This document shows, one piece after another, positions 12,149 to 19,256 of a DNA stretch of 32,640 bases. This DNA is from Desulfovibrio sp. (GTDB lineage: Bacteria; Desulfobacterota; Desulfovibrionia; Desulfovibrionales; Desulfovibrionaceae): positions 1 through 32,640 of the forward strand of contig JAISOT010000092.1 of the NCBI GenBank assembly GCA_031275465.1. Reading direction: 5' to 3'. Made by a program: the position numbers and the translations under genes. Positions within the stretch are counted from its first letter, which is position 1. Each line of letters opens with the position of its first letter. The notes beneath the pieces are model-generated. The model was not told the DNA's origin. It did not search any database and worked only from the letters and a program-made list of their open reading frames with translations.

Positions 12149-12382
12149 AGTCATTGGTGACGGCCTTATGTACCATAGTTCCGTATTTTTTGCCAGCTTC
12201 CCTGCCGGCGCTGAAAAGTCGCCATAACAAGCTGATATTAAAAAGAATCGTAAGAATAATACCCTCCGCGCGCAAATGTCACAGAACTGACATTGTCCTG
12301 TCAAAAACGCCGGGTACACAAAACGGAAATGCGGTCGGCGGAAGTCTTCCGGCATCAACCCGCAACTAAACGGAGAATGACA

Positions 12383-12802
12383 ATGGAAAAGAAAAAAATC
12401 TCCACAGAGCAGAGGATGGAGTACAGCGCCGCTGTTTCTTATCTTGAAAATCTGCTTGAAGCGTTCAGGACCGGATGTATTGAAGTGCGCAAAAAGGGGA
12501 GCCGGATTGTCCTTGTTCCGTCGTCAGATATAACTGTGGAAATTGAAGCGAAGCAAAAACCTGAAAAGGAATCATTTTCCATCGGGATTTCATGGACTCC
12601 CTGCGCGGCATGCAAGGATGGGGAAGAGCAGATCCGCATCAAGGCGTTCATTGCCGGGCAAGACGAAAAGGACGGGAAGGCCGCGACGGATTCCTCCCCC
12701 GTTGCGGGACGGGCGGCCGATGCGGCAAGTCCGGTTGCGCCCGCCGGAGAAAAAAAGCTGCCGGACGAAATGAAATCCGCCGACGTGAAAAACAAGAAAT
12801 AA
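12383..12802 (+). CDS. Amphi-Trp domain-like protein with Ala/Pro/Lys-rich tail
   Basis: MEKKKISTEQRMEYSAAVSYLENLLEAFRTGCIEVRKKGSRIVLVPSSDITVEIEAKQKPEKESFSIGISW; RBS ggag 7 nt upstream of ATG 12383. Confidence 0.7.
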   Translation: MEKKKISTEQRMEYSAAVSYLENLLEAFRTGCIEVRKKGSRIVLVPSSDITVEIEAKQKPEKESFSIGISWTPCAACKDGEEQIRIKAFIAGQDEKDGKAATDSSPVAGRAADAASPVAPAGEKKLPDEMKSADVKNKK

Positions 12803-12847
12803 CGGCGCGTGGTCCGGCATTTCCTTCCTGCTGACGGAACAGACGCC

Positions 12848-14038
12848 ATGCTGGAACTGTGCGGAATATCGGCAAACAATCCTCTTTCCGAAGGACGCGG
12901 CCTGTTCGTGCCTCCCGAATCAATCGACCGCGAACCCGCCGCGGAAGACGTGGCGGACTTTCAGGCGATCGTCGGCACTGAACTGACCGCTGAACAGGAA
13001 GATCGGATACGGATTCCCGATGTCGTCCATCCGGAGCAGCGGCATATCCTGGCCGTGCACTGGCACCCGGAGTTCATCCCGGTTCCGCTTGTCCGGGAGC
13101 GCATGGGCGCCATGTTTCCGGCCGTGGAGGAGGAATTGTGCATTCCCACCCAGCACAACGAACTGCTTGCGCTCAACGGCTTTTCGGGGGTGGAAGTGGA
13201 CTGTTTTTCCAGTGAGTTTAACCAGAAAATACAACTTCTTGCCCACTTTCAGGCGGACAGGGTCGCGCAGGCGGCCACCTTCCGGGCCATGCTGGACCAC
13301 ACCAGGAACTACCGCCGCGCGCAGCTGGGCTTTCTGCTGGATGCCCTTGGGGCAGAGCGGAACGGCAGCGGAGAGATCGCGCGGCGGGCGGCCGGTCTGA
13401 GCGGCGCGGACGAGAGCGTTGTCGCCTTTGCCGCGGCCATCGCCCACAAGCTCCGTTCCCTGATCGAACGGCACAGGGGGCAAGTGGCCAGAGGCAGTCT
13501 GAAAAACAAGCTAGTCCGCAACTTTCTCAACCGCAAGCGCGGCGTATACGGCGACACGTTCATCAGCAGGGTGCAGGTGTACGTCAATGAGGTAAAGGTC
13601 GCCGTCAAGGCCGCGTTTTCACCGGAATACTACTATGAGACAAGAGAAATCATTGAGGAAATACGCGGTCTCGGCGGGTGCGTCGTCATTCCGCACCCCG
13701 AACAGTTCTGGCCTGTTCTGCTGGCCGGGTATGACGTGGACGGTTACGAAGTCTGGAATCCCCAATCCCGGCGGTACACTGAATTTCTTATCTCGGTGGT
13801 GGCGGAACAAAACAGGAACCGGCCGAAACATCGCCGGGAGCTTCTCGTCTTTATGGGGGATGATTGCCACATGAGCGAAAAAATCCTCACGCCGGCGGAG
13901 CGGGATCCGCTGAAGGCGGAGCGGGAGGTCGGCCTGCAGCCGGCCTGGGACGATCTGAACATCCGCAGGAAGCTCATGGCGAATCAGGCTTGCCGCGAAC
14001 TCGTCATCCGGCGATACAGGGAACGCCTGTCAGGCTGA
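12848..14038 (+). CDS. PHP-like metal-dependent phosphoesterase/hydrolase
   Basis: ILAVHWHPEF (HxH), VEVDCF, VVIPHPEQF, FMGDDCHMSEK (DxH): pattern of PHP metal ligands. An alternative GTG start at 12809 is possible. Confidence 0.65.
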   Translation: MLELCGISANNPLSEGRGLFVPPESIDREPAAEDVADFQAIVGTELTAEQEDRIRIPDVVHPEQRHILAVHWHPEFIPVPLVRERMGAMFPAVEEELCIPTQHNELLALNGFSGVEVDCFSSEFNQKIQLLAHFQADRVAQAATFRAMLDHTRNYRRAQLGFLLDALGAERNGSGEIARRAAGLSGADESVVAFAAAIAHKLRSLIERHRGQVARGSLKNKLVRNFLNRKRGVYGDTFISRVQVYVNEVKVAVKAAFSPEYYYETREIIEEIRGLGGCVVIPHPEQFWPVLLAGYDVDGYEVWNPQSRRYTEFLISVVAEQNRNRPKHRRELLVFMGDDCHMSEKILTPAERDPLKAEREVGLQPAWDDLNIRRKLMANQACRELVIRRYRERLSG

Positions 14039-14096
14039 AGGCGCGGCCCCGTTGTAACAGGTCAAGGCACATCAACATTCATTACGGAGATAGATC

Positions 14097-14363
14097 ATGG
14101 CTGCTGAAAAGAAATTCATCTTTGAGTCATTGCAAGACATAAAGAGCATATGCTCATTTCTTGACGCCATCACGAATGGGATGAAGACAGGTAAAGTAAT
14201 GCTGTCGTCAGCGGATGAATGTATAGAGATGCATCCAAGCGGGCTTTTGCACATGTCGATAAAAGCGAAAAAGAAAGGGGGCAACAACAAGATAGGCTTC
14301 AAAATACAATGGAAGGAAAGTTCTTCACAAGAGCAGAACATTACGCTGTCCGTGGGGAAATAG
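14097..14363 (+). CDS. Second amphi-Trp domain-like small protein
   Basis: 88 aa, KFIFESLQDIKSICSFLDAITNGMKTGKVMLSSADECIEMHPSGLLHMSIKAKKKGGNNKIGFKIQWKES; same layout as the 12383 ORF, ending in a conserved W. Confidence 0.65.
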   Translation: MAAEKKFIFESLQDIKSICSFLDAITNGMKTGKVMLSSADECIEMHPSGLLHMSIKAKKKGGNNKIGFKIQWKESSSQEQNITLSVGK

Positions 14364-14364
14364 C

Positions 14365-16026
14365 ATGGGGAACATTGACGGGATACGGGAAAATTTTAAA
14401 TTCATTGTATCGGAAACACAGATGCAGGTTCATCGGATATATGATTTTGTAAAACATCCGACGAGTGAGGCATATGAAAAGGCGGTCAATCGTGAATCGT
14501 ATATCAATAACCTGAAAATGATTATTGAAAACAAATGCTACGCCTGCATTCATGCGCACGGCGATATGGACACGCGCAGCCTGAACCGCGTCCGGGCCGT
14601 TCTGTCGATAACCGCCAATCTTGAGCGCATCTGCGACGTGTGCATCAATATCCTTGAGCAGATGGGCTACCTCGCCGAACGCCGTATCCTGCGCGACAGC
14701 GAATATTCCCCCATGTTCCAGGTTATTGAGGAAAGCCTTGATCTGGTGTCCCGGGCACTGGAAGAGTCCAGCTTGCCCAAGGCCCTTCGCATCTGCCGCT
14801 CCGAATACATTCTTGACGCCCTGTACCGCTCGTCTTTTGAACGTCTCACCTCCCTGATCAATTCCAGCCGGGAAGGGGCCGGCAACTGCATTACGGCCAT
14901 TTTCATTTACCGCTATCTTGAGCGCATCGGCGACATGCTGCTCAATGTGGGCGAGGCGATCCTTTTTGCCGTTCTTGGACAACGCATTAAAATAGAACAA
15001 TTTGACTCGTTGCGGCAGACGCTTGAAAATTCCGGCTATACCGGCGCTTTTGAAAATATCAATTTTCAGGCTATCTGGGGTTCGCGTTCCGGCTGCCGCA
15101 TCGGCAAGATCGAAAACGCGGGCGAGGGGCGCATGTCCGAACACGCCTCCCTGTATAAGGAGGGAGCGCCCAAAAAAATTTTGCGCGAAAAGGAAAACCT
15201 TGAAAAATGGGATGCCCTTTTTCCCGGCAGCGTCCCCCGCATTTACGGGTACAATGCAGACGAGGACCGTTCGTCCCTGCTGGTGGAGTTTTTAAGCGGC
15301 TGCGGCTTTGACGATCTCATCATCCTCCGGGATGGGGCAACCGTCGCCAACGCCTTTTTCGTGCTGGAAAAGACCATTCAGCATATATGGGAAAAAACGC
15401 TTGATCCCGGGCCGGTCGCCGTCAACTTCATACAACAGTTGCAGCAGCGCTATGACGAGGTGCGGCAGGTCCACCCGGAATTCGCCCAGCGCTCGCGTCT
15501 TTCCATAGGCAAAGCGCATGTGCCTTCCGTACAAAGCCTTATAGAACAATGCCGCGAATATGAAAAAAACCTTTGTGCTCCATTTTCCGTGCTGATTCAC
15601 GGAGATTTCAACACAAACAACATCATCTATGATCATGAAGAGCAAATTGTGCGGTTTATCGATCTCTACCGGTCAAAGCAGTATGACTATGTTCAGGACG
15701 TCTCCGTGTTTCTTGTTTCCAACTTCCGGCGGCCGATTTTTGACCCGCTGCTGCGTGGCAGACTGAACAGGGGAATCTCGGAATTCCACTCCTGGGCGCT
15801 GCAATTCGCGCGGGAAAAGGAAGACGAAACCATGCAGGCCCGCATGGCCTTTGCCCTGGCGCGGTCGTTTTTTACTTCAATCCGTTTCGAGATGAACCAG
15901 GCCTTTGCCGGCGAACTGTTTATGCGGGCGGCGTTTTTGCTGGAATCCATCAGCGCGCACGGACGGACGGGCGGCCCCTGGCAAACGTTCACCTTTCCCC
16001 CGGACATCCTGTATTACACCGCATAG
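14365..16026 (+). CDS. PhoU-domain / aminoglycoside-phosphotransferase-like kinase fusion
   Basis: N-terminus has two PhoU-type motifs (LERICDVCINILEQM, LERIGDMLLNVGEAI). C-terminus has an APH catalytic loop IHGDFNTNNIIYD and metal-binding segment FIDLYRSKQYDYVQDVSVFLV. Confidence 0.8.
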   Translation: MGNIDGIRENFKFIVSETQMQVHRIYDFVKHPTSEAYEKAVNRESYINNLKMIIENKCYACIHAHGDMDTRSLNRVRAVLSITANLERICDVCINILEQMGYLAERRILRDSEYSPMFQVIEESLDLVSRALEESSLPKALRICRSEYILDALYRSSFERLTSLINSSREGAGNCITAIFIYRYLERIGDMLLNVGEAILFAVLGQRIKIEQFDSLRQTLENSGYTGAFENINFQAIWGSRSGCRIGKIENAGEGRMSEHASLYKEGAPKKILREKENLEKWDALFPGSVPRIYGYNADEDRSSLLVEFLSGCGFDDLIILRDGATVANAFFVLEKTIQHIWEKTLDPGPVAVNFIQQLQQRYDEVRQVHPEFAQRSRLSIGKAHVPSVQSLIEQCREYEKNLCAPFSVLIHGDFNTNNIIYDHEEQIVRFIDLYRSKQYDYVQDVSVFLVSNFRRPIFDPLLRGRLNRGISEFHSWALQFAREKEDETMQARMAFALARSFFTSIRFEMNQAFAGELFMRAAFLLESISAHGRTGGPWQTFTFPPDILYYTA

Positions 16027-16063
16027 TGAAAATCCGCCCTGCGGGCAAAGTGAGGAAAAAACT

Positions 16064-16963
16064 GTGAAGATAGGCGTGATCGGCGTGCCGGGAGGCGAAT
16101 CTTCCGAAAAATTGGCGGATGCCGTGGCGGACGCCACAGGAACGCGCATTCTTGTTTCCATGGACGCCGTGCGGCTTGATCTGCCCTCCGGCCGCTGCTT
16201 TTACAACGGCATGGATATTTCCGCGCTGGACGCCCTGATTGTCAAAAAGATAGGGGCGCGTTATTCTCCGGACCTTCTGGACCGGCTGGAAATGCTCTGT
16301 TTTCTTGCGGACAGGGGCGTGCGCGTGTTTTCGGATCCGCACACCGTTATCCGCATGCTGGACCGTTTGGGCTGCACCCTCAGATTGCAGGCGGCGGGCG
16401 TTCCCATGCCGCCCACCACCATTACGGAAAGCCCGGAACAGGCCTTGCGGGCCATCAGGCGGTATGGCCGGGCGGTTCTCAAACCGCTGTACACGTCAAA
16501 GGCCAGGGGCATGCGGCTTGTCGACAGCCGGAACCCCGGACTGCCCGACCTCATCGCGGACTATGTGAAGGACAATACAGTGATATACGCGCAGAAAGCC
16601 CTGCGACTGGAAAACAATCTTGATCTCGGCGTCGTTTTTCTGGGCCAGGACTATCTGACCACCTATGCCCGGGTAAAAGCGGAAAACGCATGGAACACCA
16701 CCACCGCCAACGGGGGACGCTATGCGCCCTTTACGCCCGATGCGGCGATCCTGGCTGTGGCCCGCAAAGCGCGGGCCGTGTTTGACCTTGCCTTTACCTG
16801 CGTGGACGTGGCGGTAACGGACGACGGCCCGCTGGTCTTTGAAGTTTCGGCCTTCGGGGGCTTCCGGGGCGTGGAAAAGACAACCGATCTCAACCCGGCG
16901 GCCCTGCTGGCGGAGCATCTGCTTGCCCGCATGCGCGAGCCGGCCGCGGGAGGCAAGGCATGA
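16064..16963 (+). CDS. ATP-grasp enzyme (GAK-system type)
   Basis: GTG start behind gagg; KIGVIGVPGGESSEKLADAV...GVPMPPTTITESPEQALRAIRRYGRAVLKPLYTSKARGMRLV...DVAVTDDGPLVFEVSAFGGFRG. Confidence 0.8.
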   Translation: MKIGVIGVPGGESSEKLADAVADATGTRILVSMDAVRLDLPSGRCFYNGMDISALDALIVKKIGARYSPDLLDRLEMLCFLADRGVRVFSDPHTVIRMLDRLGCTLRLQAAGVPMPPTTITESPEQALRAIRRYGRAVLKPLYTSKARGMRLVDSRNPGLPDLIADYVKDNTVIYAQKALRLENNLDLGVVFLGQDYLTTYARVKAENAWNTTTANGGRYAPFTPDAAILAVARKARAVFDLAFTCVDVAVTDDGPLVFEVSAFGGFRGVEKTTDLNPAALLAEHLLARMREPAAGGKA

Positions 16964-18039
16964 CGGCATCGTGTACGGATATTATCCGCTCCGTGCGGAA
17001 AAAATATCCCGCGACGTTCGGGTTGCGGCTGAATTTTGACGGCATTGCGGTCTTTGTCTCCAGCAACGAGCGGGTTCTGCTCAATCTGCTGCGCAATTAT
17101 TTCGGGGAGTTTGTCGTCGGCCCGGAAGGCGGCTTTTCTCCGTCCATCGCCATCAGCGCGCATGAAGGGCCTGTGCCGGACATAGACGGACAGTTTACCG
17201 AAAAGCAGCCCGATCCCGGAAAAACGAAGATCAAGGAAGAGTATCTTGACTGCGGCGACGGAAGGCTGGTTCGCAAGCGTCTCACCGGCATGCTGTTCGC
17301 TTTTTCGGGCGCGGAGCATCTTGCCGTGGGGCCGTGCGCGCGCAACTGCAATCAGGTTGTCAACTTCATCAACAGCCGGCTGATCGCCCGCCACCTCGGC
17401 CGCGGCTGTTACCTGGGGCACGCGGCGGCTGTCGCCCGCCGGGGAAAGGGAATCGCCCTGTGCGGTTTTTCGGGCATGGGCAAATCAACCCTGGCCCTGT
17501 TTCTCATGAACGAAGGATGCGCCTTTGTCAGCAACGACAGGGTGCTGCTCTCCGCCGAAATTCCGGCCCGTTTGTACGGCGTTCCCAAGCATCCGCGCAT
17601 CAATCCGGGCACGGCCCTCAATAACGCCGTCCTGCGGGACATCCTGAATCCCGAGGACAGGGAGCGTTTTTCCGCCTTGCCGCCGGATCGTCTCTGGTCG
17701 CTGGAGCGCAAGTACGACGCCCCTATCGGGCAATGCTACGGGCCCGGCCGCTTTGCGCTGCAAGCGCCTTTCGCGGGGCTGGCGGCGCTCAACTGGCGCC
17801 GGACCGGCGGGGCGATGCGGGTTGCCGAGGTCCACCCCCCCGACCGGCCGGATCTTGTCGGCGCGTTCAGCAAAAACGCGGGATTGTTTTTTGCGCCCGA
17901 CGGGCCGGAAGCCTATGCCCCTCCTTCTCCGGAAGCGTACGCCGCCCGGCTCGCCCAGGCTCCGATGCTGGAAATAACGGGAGGGGTGGACTTTCCGGCG
18001 GCGGCGGGGATCTGCCTTGAGTTTTTTCGCCTCCGATAG
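16960..18039 (+). CDS. HprK-related kinase (HprK-related kinase B type)
   Basis: Walker A ALCGFSGMGKSTLALFLMNEGCAFVSNDRVLL, as in HPr kinase folds; HPRINPGTALNN; ATGA overlap with the ATP-grasp gene. Confidence 0.8.
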   Translation: MTASCTDIIRSVRKKYPATFGLRLNFDGIAVFVSSNERVLLNLLRNYFGEFVVGPEGGFSPSIAISAHEGPVPDIDGQFTEKQPDPGKTKIKEEYLDCGDGRLVRKRLTGMLFAFSGAEHLAVGPCARNCNQVVNFINSRLIARHLGRGCYLGHAAAVARRGKGIALCGFSGMGKSTLALFLMNEGCAFVSNDRVLLSAEIPARLYGVPKHPRINPGTALNNAVLRDILNPEDRERFSALPPDRLWSLERKYDAPIGQCYGPGRFALQAPFAGLAALNWRRTGGAMRVAEVHPPDRPDLVGAFSKNAGLFFAPDGPEAYAPPSPEAYAARLAQAPMLEITGGVDFPAAAGICLEFFRLR

Positions 18040-18053
18040 GCCGGAACACGCCC

Positions 18054-19256
18054 ATGCCGAACGCCCGCGACGTTGTTTCCATTGTTCTGCCCCGGCGCGC
18101 CGTCATTCCCGATGAGGTCAAAATGGAGCGTTTCCGGCGCGCGCCGGAACTGGGGCCGGCCCTGCTGTTTTTTTCAGGCGGCACGGCCATGCGGGATACG
18201 GCGCGGGCGCTGACGGAATATACGCACAACGCCATCCATATCATGACCCCCTTTGATTCCGGCGGCAGCTCGGCGGCCCTGCGCCGTTCGTTCAACATGC
18301 CCGCCGTGGGGGACATCCGCGCCCGCATCATGGCCCTCGCGGATCAGAGCGTGAAAGGCAATCCGGAAATCTACTCCCTGTTTTCCCACCGCCTTGCCGG
18401 GGATCAGCGGCGGGAGGCGCCGCTACGCGAGCTGGCGTCGCTGTGCGCGGGCAGACATCCGCTCATTCGGGCCGTGCCCGACCCCATGCGCAAGATCATC
18501 CGCACCACGCTCATGCAATTCGTGGAGCGCATGCCGGAGGATTTTGTTCTGGCAGGGGCCAGCATTGGCAACCTCGTGCTTGCCGGCGGCTACCTCACGC
18601 AGAGGAGACATCTTGACTCGGTTATTTTTCTCTATTCCAGGCTGGTGGAAGCGCGGGGCATTGTCCGGCCGGTGGCGAACGCCGTCGGCCATCTCGCCGT
18701 GCGGCTCGCCTCCGGCGAGGTCATTGTCGGGCAGCACGCCTTCACCGGCAAGGAAGGGAGACCCGTGTCCTCGCCCATAGAAGAAATATGGATCACCCGC
18801 TCCCTTGACGAGGCGGCGCCAATTACTGTCGGCATCCGTCCGAAACTGCGCGACCTCATCGTCAAGGCGGATCTTGTCTGCTATCCTTTCGGCAGCTTTT
18901 ACTCAAGCCTCATCGCCAACCTGCTGCCCCGGGGGGTGGGCAGGGCCGTGGCGGCGGCTCCCTGCCCCAAGATTTTCATGCCCAATCTGGGAGCGGATCC
19001 CGAACTCGCGGGGCATACCCTGCGCGACCAGACGGAGCGCCTGCTGCGCCATCTGGCGCGCGACGGCGTCCGCGAACGGGACGTGTTGCAGGCGCTTGTC
19101 GTTGACAGCGACGAGAGCGCCTATCCCGGCGGGATACCGTCCGCATGGCTGCGCGCAAGGGGCATCCGCGTTGTGCGGACGTCGCTGGTATCGCCGGAGT
19201 CTTTCCCCCACGCCTGCCCGAGGCTTGTTTGCCGGGCGCTCCTTTCCCTTGTCTGA
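18054..19256 (+). CDS. CofD-like (2-phospho-L-lactate transferase superfamily) protein
   Basis: ALLFFSGGTAMRDTARALTEYTHNAIHIMTPFDSGGSSAALRRSFNMPAVGDIRARIMALAD...GNLVLAGGYL. Confidence 0.85.
   Translation: MPNARDVVSIVLPRRAVIPDEVKMERFRRAPELGPALLFFSGGTAMRDTARALTEYTHNAIHIMTPFDSGGSSAALRRSFNMPAVGDIRARIMALADQSVKGNPEIYSLFSHRLAGDQRREAPLRELASLCAGRHPLIRAVPDPMRKIIRTTLMQFVERMPEDFVLAGASIGNLVLAGGYLTQRRHLDSVIFLYSRLVEARGIVRPVANAVGHLAVRLASGEVIVGQHAFTGKEGRPVSSPIEEIWITRSLDEAAPITVGIRPKLRDLIVKADLVCYPFGSFYSSLIANLLPRGVGRAVAAAPCPKIFMPNLGADPELAGHTLRDQTERLLRHLARDGVRERDVLQALVVDSDESAYPGGIPSAWLRARGIRVVRTSLVSPESFPHACPRLVCRALLSLV

Follow-up and report, generated by a model that had tools for sequence, protein, structure and literature searches.

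A seven-gene operon in a Desulfovibrio sp. genome (GCA_031275465.1, contig JAISOT010000092.1; the whole 32,640-nucleotide stretch that was analysed is referred to as the window) raises the question of why two kinases of different fold, a phosphatase, an ATP-grasp enzyme, a CofD-like protein and two small amphi-Trp proteins (AT1 and AT2) should be encoded together. An original prediction, made from the sequence alone, had described a complete operon of the GAK system, a set of protein families named by neighbourhood only, and had read it as a phosphorylation/ligation pathway that builds or modifies a small molecule or a small acceptor protein. The analysis presented here points, with moderate confidence, to a PhoB-regulon GAK operon that encodes a phosphoryl-transfer module. 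The GAK name and families are already in NCBIfam, and NCBI annotation applies them to genomes of several phyla; the assignment to phosphate appears to be new. No paper on the GAK system was found in the open-access literature, most subscription papers lying outside the coverage of the search. A link to phosphate starvation turns a conserved system of unknown function into a question that is open to testing.

A candidate PhoB box and phosphate-acquisition neighbours

Upstream of AT1 lies the sequence ATGTCACAGAA-CTGACATTGTC-CTGTCAA, three 11-bp repeats of the PhoB half-site. Compared with the E. coli reference motif CTGTCAT-N4-CTGTCAT, it matches at 12/14 positions from 12287 and at 11/14 from 12276; the Pho motif of D. 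vulgaris consists of (c/t)GT(n)AC repeats (PMC3333781). The box has the top three-repeat score in the window (19.6) and, among the 13 sites in the genome with two mismatches or fewer, is the sole one that is intergenic and 5' of a gene. The element is kept in the closest relative, L073, inside an otherwise diverged leader. A phoB-like gene (252 bits, short of the cut-off of 296), a histidine kinase gene (phoR) and pstCA are found on one contig of the same genome, with a comparable box between them. The hallmarks of a Pho-regulon operon, namely an upstream PhoB box (here a sequence match only) and PhoB/PhoR with Pst in the genome, are both present.

Across the family, a box at shuffle P<0.05 is found upstream of 41% of 51 GAK operons and of 14% of 306 control upstream regions from the same loci, and the three-repeat scores of the two sets differ (Mann-Whitney P=7e-6), with the reservation that the GAK loci are related to each other and all P values are therefore optimistic. 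Genes of phosphate limitation in the same loci served as positive controls, and carry the box in every case (olsF 5/5, pstS 2/2). Some hits were already known when the weights of the motif were set, so a hold-out test was run; it gave 50% versus 3% on 14 further loci (P=3e-4), and an unweighted, literature-derived motif is also enriched (P=3.6e-5). Simple counts of matches to the E. coli Pho box, tried as a measure in the GAK loci, are not clearly enriched (25% versus 16% at 10/14 or more); the enrichment is seen once three repeats are scored and the D. vulgaris variant is permitted. Stand-alone cofD genes have no box upstream (0/8).

The neighbourhoods of GAK loci were compared after a scan of genome contigs that yielded 511 ATP-grasp relatives, the best 80 of which were kept. 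Homologues of pst, agt or olsF stand beside GAK in 19/84 loci; agt does so in 14 loci, where ~0.3 would be expected for one copy per 4-Mb genome. In L137, pstS-pstC-pstA-pstB-phoU lies directly 5' of GAK, and parts of the phosphate-transport set adjoin it in L111, L119, L141 and L047. HprK is encoded away from the operon in three genomes (G037, G040 and G050), and two of these three split genes are in phosphate clusters, next to pstSCAB in G050 (L219) and to olsF and phnCDE in G037 (L220); the box upstream of the split genes is weak in L213 and absent in L214 and L215. In D. alaskensis G20, mutants of agt (Dde_3613) and olsF (Dde_3661) fail specifically at low phosphate, and a 'phoU' gene (Dde_2835), which may or may not be the GAK PhoU-APH gene, has a late phosphate-starvation phenotype (PMC5193443).

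It is because the box is kept in L073, is enriched family-wide and is accompanied by phoBR-pst in the genome and by phosphate genes as neighbours that Pho control is proposed, and the operon very probably belongs to the Pho regulon. The original prediction, whose GAK identification stands, had overlooked both the PhoB-type site and the phosphate-acquisition neighbourhoods. The possibility that agt is an obligatory partner was rejected, as agt is absent from the window genome and from many others that have GAK. The Agt-type glycosyltransferases beside GAK (L136:873-3350, L041:3692-6130 and 12 more loci) carry a fused N-terminal PHP-like domain, recognised by the motif RIDLHVHSKFS...GSDDHSG.

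Gene content and conservation of the operon

All seven open reading frames predicted between 12383 and 19256 are present and co-directional (Table 1). Five of the seven products exceed the curated NCBIfam cut-offs of GAK or amphi-Trp families (TIGR04354-TIGR04357). The tight packing had been described as including several start/stop overlaps; there is one true overlap, of 4 bp, between the ATP-grasp and HprK genes, and the remaining gaps are ~1-60 bp depending on the starts chosen. The ratio of non-synonymous to synonymous substitution (dN/dS) against L073 is 0.12-0.24 in six genes, 0.12 for AT1, indicating purifying selection; for AT2, the proportion of non-synonymous differences is 0.12 and that of synonymous differences is saturated.

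Table 1. Features of the GAK operon and its upstream region in the window
Feature	Coordinates	Strand	Basis or remark
Candidate PhoB box, three tandem 11-bp repeats	12276..12304	+	~79 bp 5' of first ATG
AT1, amphi-Trp domain protein, charged tail	12383..12802	+	TIGR04354
PHP-superfamily metal-dependent phosphoesterase	12848..14038, alternative start GTG 12809	+	motifs, AlphaFold model and Foldseek
AT2, amphi-Trp domain protein, 88 amino acids	14097..14363	+	TIGR04354
PhoU domain fused to APH-type kinase domain (PhoU-APH), 553 amino acids	14365..16026	+	PF01895, PF01636, PF02958
GAK ATP-grasp enzyme, RimK/MptN-like	16064..16963, GTG start 16064	+	TIGR04356
HprK-related kinase B (HprK-B)	16960..18039	+	TIGR04355
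GAK CofD-like protein, YvcK type	18054..19256	+	TIGR04357

The description of the operon as complete holds for these seven intact genes and not for the canonical XXXCH gene (TIGR04358), for which no match was found in the operon, in the ~90% complete genome or in the two closest relatives, with a positive control (G041) detected. Its place is taken by an amphi-Trp gene. XXXCH is not required for GAK because it is present in only about half of the loci (44). The locus is a real copy of the GAK system, with intact catalytic motifs, and is not quite complete in that it is without XXXCH. The XXXCH proteins of other GAK loci, encoded 5' of PHP (L036, L034, L041 and others), have an amphi-Trp-like N-terminal part, which in L041 is over the TIGR04354 cut-off; the best PDB sequence matches of their C-terminal domain are cytochromes c', which are weak (E=0.01 upwards), and the C-terminus is CH..YK in most.

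The Desulfobacterota order XXXCH-PHP-amphi-Trp-PhoU/APH-ATP-grasp-HprK-CofD-amphi-Trp is repeated on further loci and found in dozens of genomes, and the window operon follows it from PHP to CofD. The grouping is not due to chance, since the same families occur in the same order in dozens of other genomes. The genes occur together in many genomes, and the absence of co-occurrence named beforehand as counting against the original prediction is therefore not seen. In the alpha- and gammaproteobacterial systems, some copies of which are plasmid-borne, a histidine phosphatase and a calcineurin-type phosphoesterase (metallophosphoesterase) take the place of PHP, and NUDIX genes and SixA-like/NUDIX fusions are often added (L115, L139, L144, L147, L148, L152, L206-L208). 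The phosphatase is thus swapped between unrelated enzymes, so that the constant core consists of PhoU-APH, ATP-grasp, HprK, the CofD-like protein, amphi-Trp and some phosphatase.

Most genomes of the window's genus retain only the cofD-like gene of GAK. In L045, L048, L049, L050 and L052, this stand-alone gene lies in a cluster that by eye is conserved as yidC-jag-mnmE-exonuclease-cofD-pseudouridine synthase-DUF47-PiT; these clusters contain no other GAK genes and no Pho box.

Enzymes and small proteins of the operon

PhoU-APH is encoded in a single uninterrupted frame and joins a PhoU domain (PF01895, 78 bits; PDB match 4q25) to an APH-type kinase (PF01636/PF02958; PDB match APH(3') 4feu). 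It has the HGDxxxxN catalytic motif and the later metal-binding Asp of APH kinases, and HGDxNxxN and the later D are invariant in 20 sequences (H412, G413, D414, N419 and D433). The second kinase, HprK-B, scores 456 bits with TIGR04355 (cut-off 200), has conserved Walker A, His and NDR motifs (13 sequences) and matches the HPrK/P P-loop structure 2qmh (E=2e-6). HprK/P responds to ATP, inorganic phosphate and pyrophosphate, which suggests that a kinase of this type would suit a phosphate-responsive role, though HprK-B is outside HprK/P by cut-off.

The PHP gene product has no sequence match in Pfam, NCBIfam or PDB, and had been assigned from its motifs. This call was right because the AlphaFold model, with a mean predicted local distance difference test score (pLDDT) of 91, matches the PHP phosphoesterase 3o0f (Foldseek E=1.8e-5) and RNase AM (2.3e-4). 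The protein has the fold and the metal-binding motifs of the PHP superfamily, with HWHPE, TQHN, PHPE.FWP and GDD.H invariant across the family, and the earlier statement that the motifs are catalytically intact is borne out for kinases and hydrolase alike.

The ATP-grasp enzyme (TIGR04356, 396 bits, cut-off 300) has RimK/LysX as nearest structures and, of the characterised families, comes closest to MptN (111 bits) and LysX (81 bits). In its catalytic motif, EVSAFGGF, a Ser stands for the usual RimK-type Asn and is invariant in 16/16 aligned sequences; this substitution may alter metal use or activity. The last gene product belongs to the GAK CofD-like family, as labelled originally (TIGR04357, 511 bits, cut-off 340; PF01933 CofD, 121 bits), with nearly invariant DSGGSS and GD.R motifs. 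Its relationship is of the YvcK type rather than the CofD type as judged by sequence matches in PDB, 5/5 of which are UPF0052/YvcK-type; by the YvcK family cut-off (TIGR01826) it falls short, with 103.6 bits versus 196. YvcK is a binder of UDP-N-acetylglucosamine and is not known to have enzymatic activity; the original prediction had not noted this relationship to YvcK.

AT1 and AT2 (57.1 and 54.2 bits, cut-off 31) are the only two amphi-Trp proteins in the genome by TIGR04354 search. The predicted model of AT2 (pLDDT 88.5) consists of one helix and a four-stranded sheet and has no fold match in PDB; AT2 as an HPr-like acceptor was rejected on this fold. The serine of its ESxQD motif, the best candidate acceptor residue, was considered as an obligatory phosphosite and is not decisive, as a few genomes have Ala, Cys or Asn in its place and genomes without HprK retain it. 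The original prediction had offered the amphi-Trp proteins as candidate acceptors or scaffolds. AT1 tails can be Lys/Ala-rich. In L081 (12191-13875), L082, L093 and L114, a ParA-like ATPase gene, recognised by motif, accompanies the AT1-type gene; the pairing could reflect positioning of some cellular cargo.

A proposed phosphoryl-transfer module and its relation to known systems

In the proposed model, PhoB would bind the triple 11-bp box at low phosphate and switch the operon on. The PhoU-tethered kinase and the HprK-type P-loop kinase would add a phosphate group that the PHP phosphatase would remove, and the ATP-grasp enzyme would ligate an amino acid, or a group like it, to a carboxylate. 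The targets would most likely be the small amphi-Trp proteins, the YvcK-like UDP-sugar-binding protein or both; when phosphate is short, the module may tune the metabolism of carbon and of the envelope, in parallel with agt and olsF, the genes for lipids free of phosphorus. A phosphate-linked phosphoryl-transfer function is proposed because a PhoU domain is fused to a kinase, and the phosphatase is given a role because the operon has one in both its forms, as PHP in deltaproteobacteria or as histidine phosphatase with metallophosphoesterase in alpha/gammaproteobacteria. The parts of this model differ in strength: that the two kinases and the phosphatase run a reversible phosphorylation circuit is suggested tentatively, an output in sugar or envelope metabolism is doubtful, and amphi-Trp proteins as the phospho-acceptors are unlikely. 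The boldest version, in which GAK would be a widespread, unrecognised, PhoB-induced branch of the phosphate-starvation response whose two kinases reversibly modify the amphi-Trp proteins, as small acceptors of a new class with no structural match known, and in this way act on a UDP-sugar sensor of the YvcK type, is quite unlikely as a whole. If true, the model would extend the classical Pst-PhoU-PhoBR scheme by a layer of phosphoryl transfer with a link to a UDP-sugar-binding protein, next to genes that swap phospholipids for glyco- and ornithine lipids.

Several points weigh against the phosphate-linked module. About half of the GAK loci, several alpha/gammaproteobacterial ones among them, have no significant box, and the relatedness of the loci and the choice of motif weights noted above bear on its statistics. 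By the HprK/P family cut-off (TIGR00679), HprK-B scores 29.2 bits versus 240. HprK is not essential to the module, because it is absent from three near-complete GAK-positive genomes (G038, G042 and G054). The acceptor proteins in the circuit are candidates only. The main text of the fitness study of G20, a strain that may or may not carry GAK, mentions no GAK-type product among the 91 phosphate-responsive genes (PMC5193443).

The same observations bear on the other explanations. If the kinases activate a substrate, the ATP-grasp enzyme ligates it and the CofD-like protein transfers a phospho-group, as in the original prediction, the product would be a small molecule such as a cofactor-like compound or a head group free of phosphorus, for phosphate starvation or general use. 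A set of two kinases, one ligase and one hydrolase does resemble a pathway, and the proximity to MptN and LysX, the PF01933 match and the lipid-remodelling genes near GAK loci agree with one; however, among solved structures YvcK, not CofD, comes closest to the CofD-like protein, the operon has no constant gene for a carrier, for export or for a head group, and the small amphi-Trp proteins are almost as constant as the enzymes. A biosynthetic role is rather unlikely on this evidence. GAK might instead build, coat or mobilise polyphosphate, or a polyphosphorylated compound related to it, and the amphi-Trp and XXXCH proteins would then be associated with granules. The NUDIX, histidine-phosphatase and calcineurin-type hydrolases that are frequent partners in alpha/gammaproteobacteria, the Lys/Ala-rich tails possible in AT1, the ParA-like pairing of some loci and the loss of polyphosphate granules in G20 when phosphate is limiting (PMC5193443) would fit such a store, which is nevertheless improbable: a search of neighbouring genes, which was not exhaustive, recognised none for PPK, PPX or CHAD.

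The phosphate link could also be incidental, the boxes being background, the agt and pst neighbours sharing a genomic island and the function being unrelated to phosphate. The half of the loci without a significant box, the controls that mildly exceed shuffles (14%) and the few phosphate neighbours of alpha/gammaproteobacterial loci all point this way. Yet the box enrichment is replicated in the hold-out, the stand-alone cofD loci are negative, split HprK genes occur in two different phosphate-acquisition clusters, and PhoU is fused to the kinase, and an incidental link is very improbable.

Compared with the GAK system as defined by TIGR04354-TIGR04358, the window operon has ATP-grasp, HprK-B, CofD-like and amphi-Trp products above cut-offs and the Desulfobacterota gene order, and differs in that it is without XXXCH and has an amphi-Trp gene 5' of PHP, not 3' of cofD; none of the papers searched assigns the system a function, and Pho control is proposed in this analysis. 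With Pst-PhoU-PhoBR, GAK shares the PhoU domain, the PhoB-type box and frequent adjacency to pst genes, whereas its PhoU is fused to an APH-type kinase and it has no transporter genes of its own. HprK-B shares with HprK/P the P-loop, the upstream His, the DR motif and a kinase domain related to 2qmh/1jb1; in contrast, a conserved KxPRxNPGT stretch stands (by eye) at the position of the HprK/P family signature, and no HPr-like fold is found among its partners, the fold of AT2 being different. The PHP protein resembles 3o0f and RNase AM in fold and metal-site motifs and differs in its large helical additions and in having no sequence-level family match. The CofD-like protein has the GGT, DSGGSS and GD.R motifs of YvcK/UPF0052, from which it is set apart by an operon that it shares with kinases and by a long insert that separates its two regions of match.

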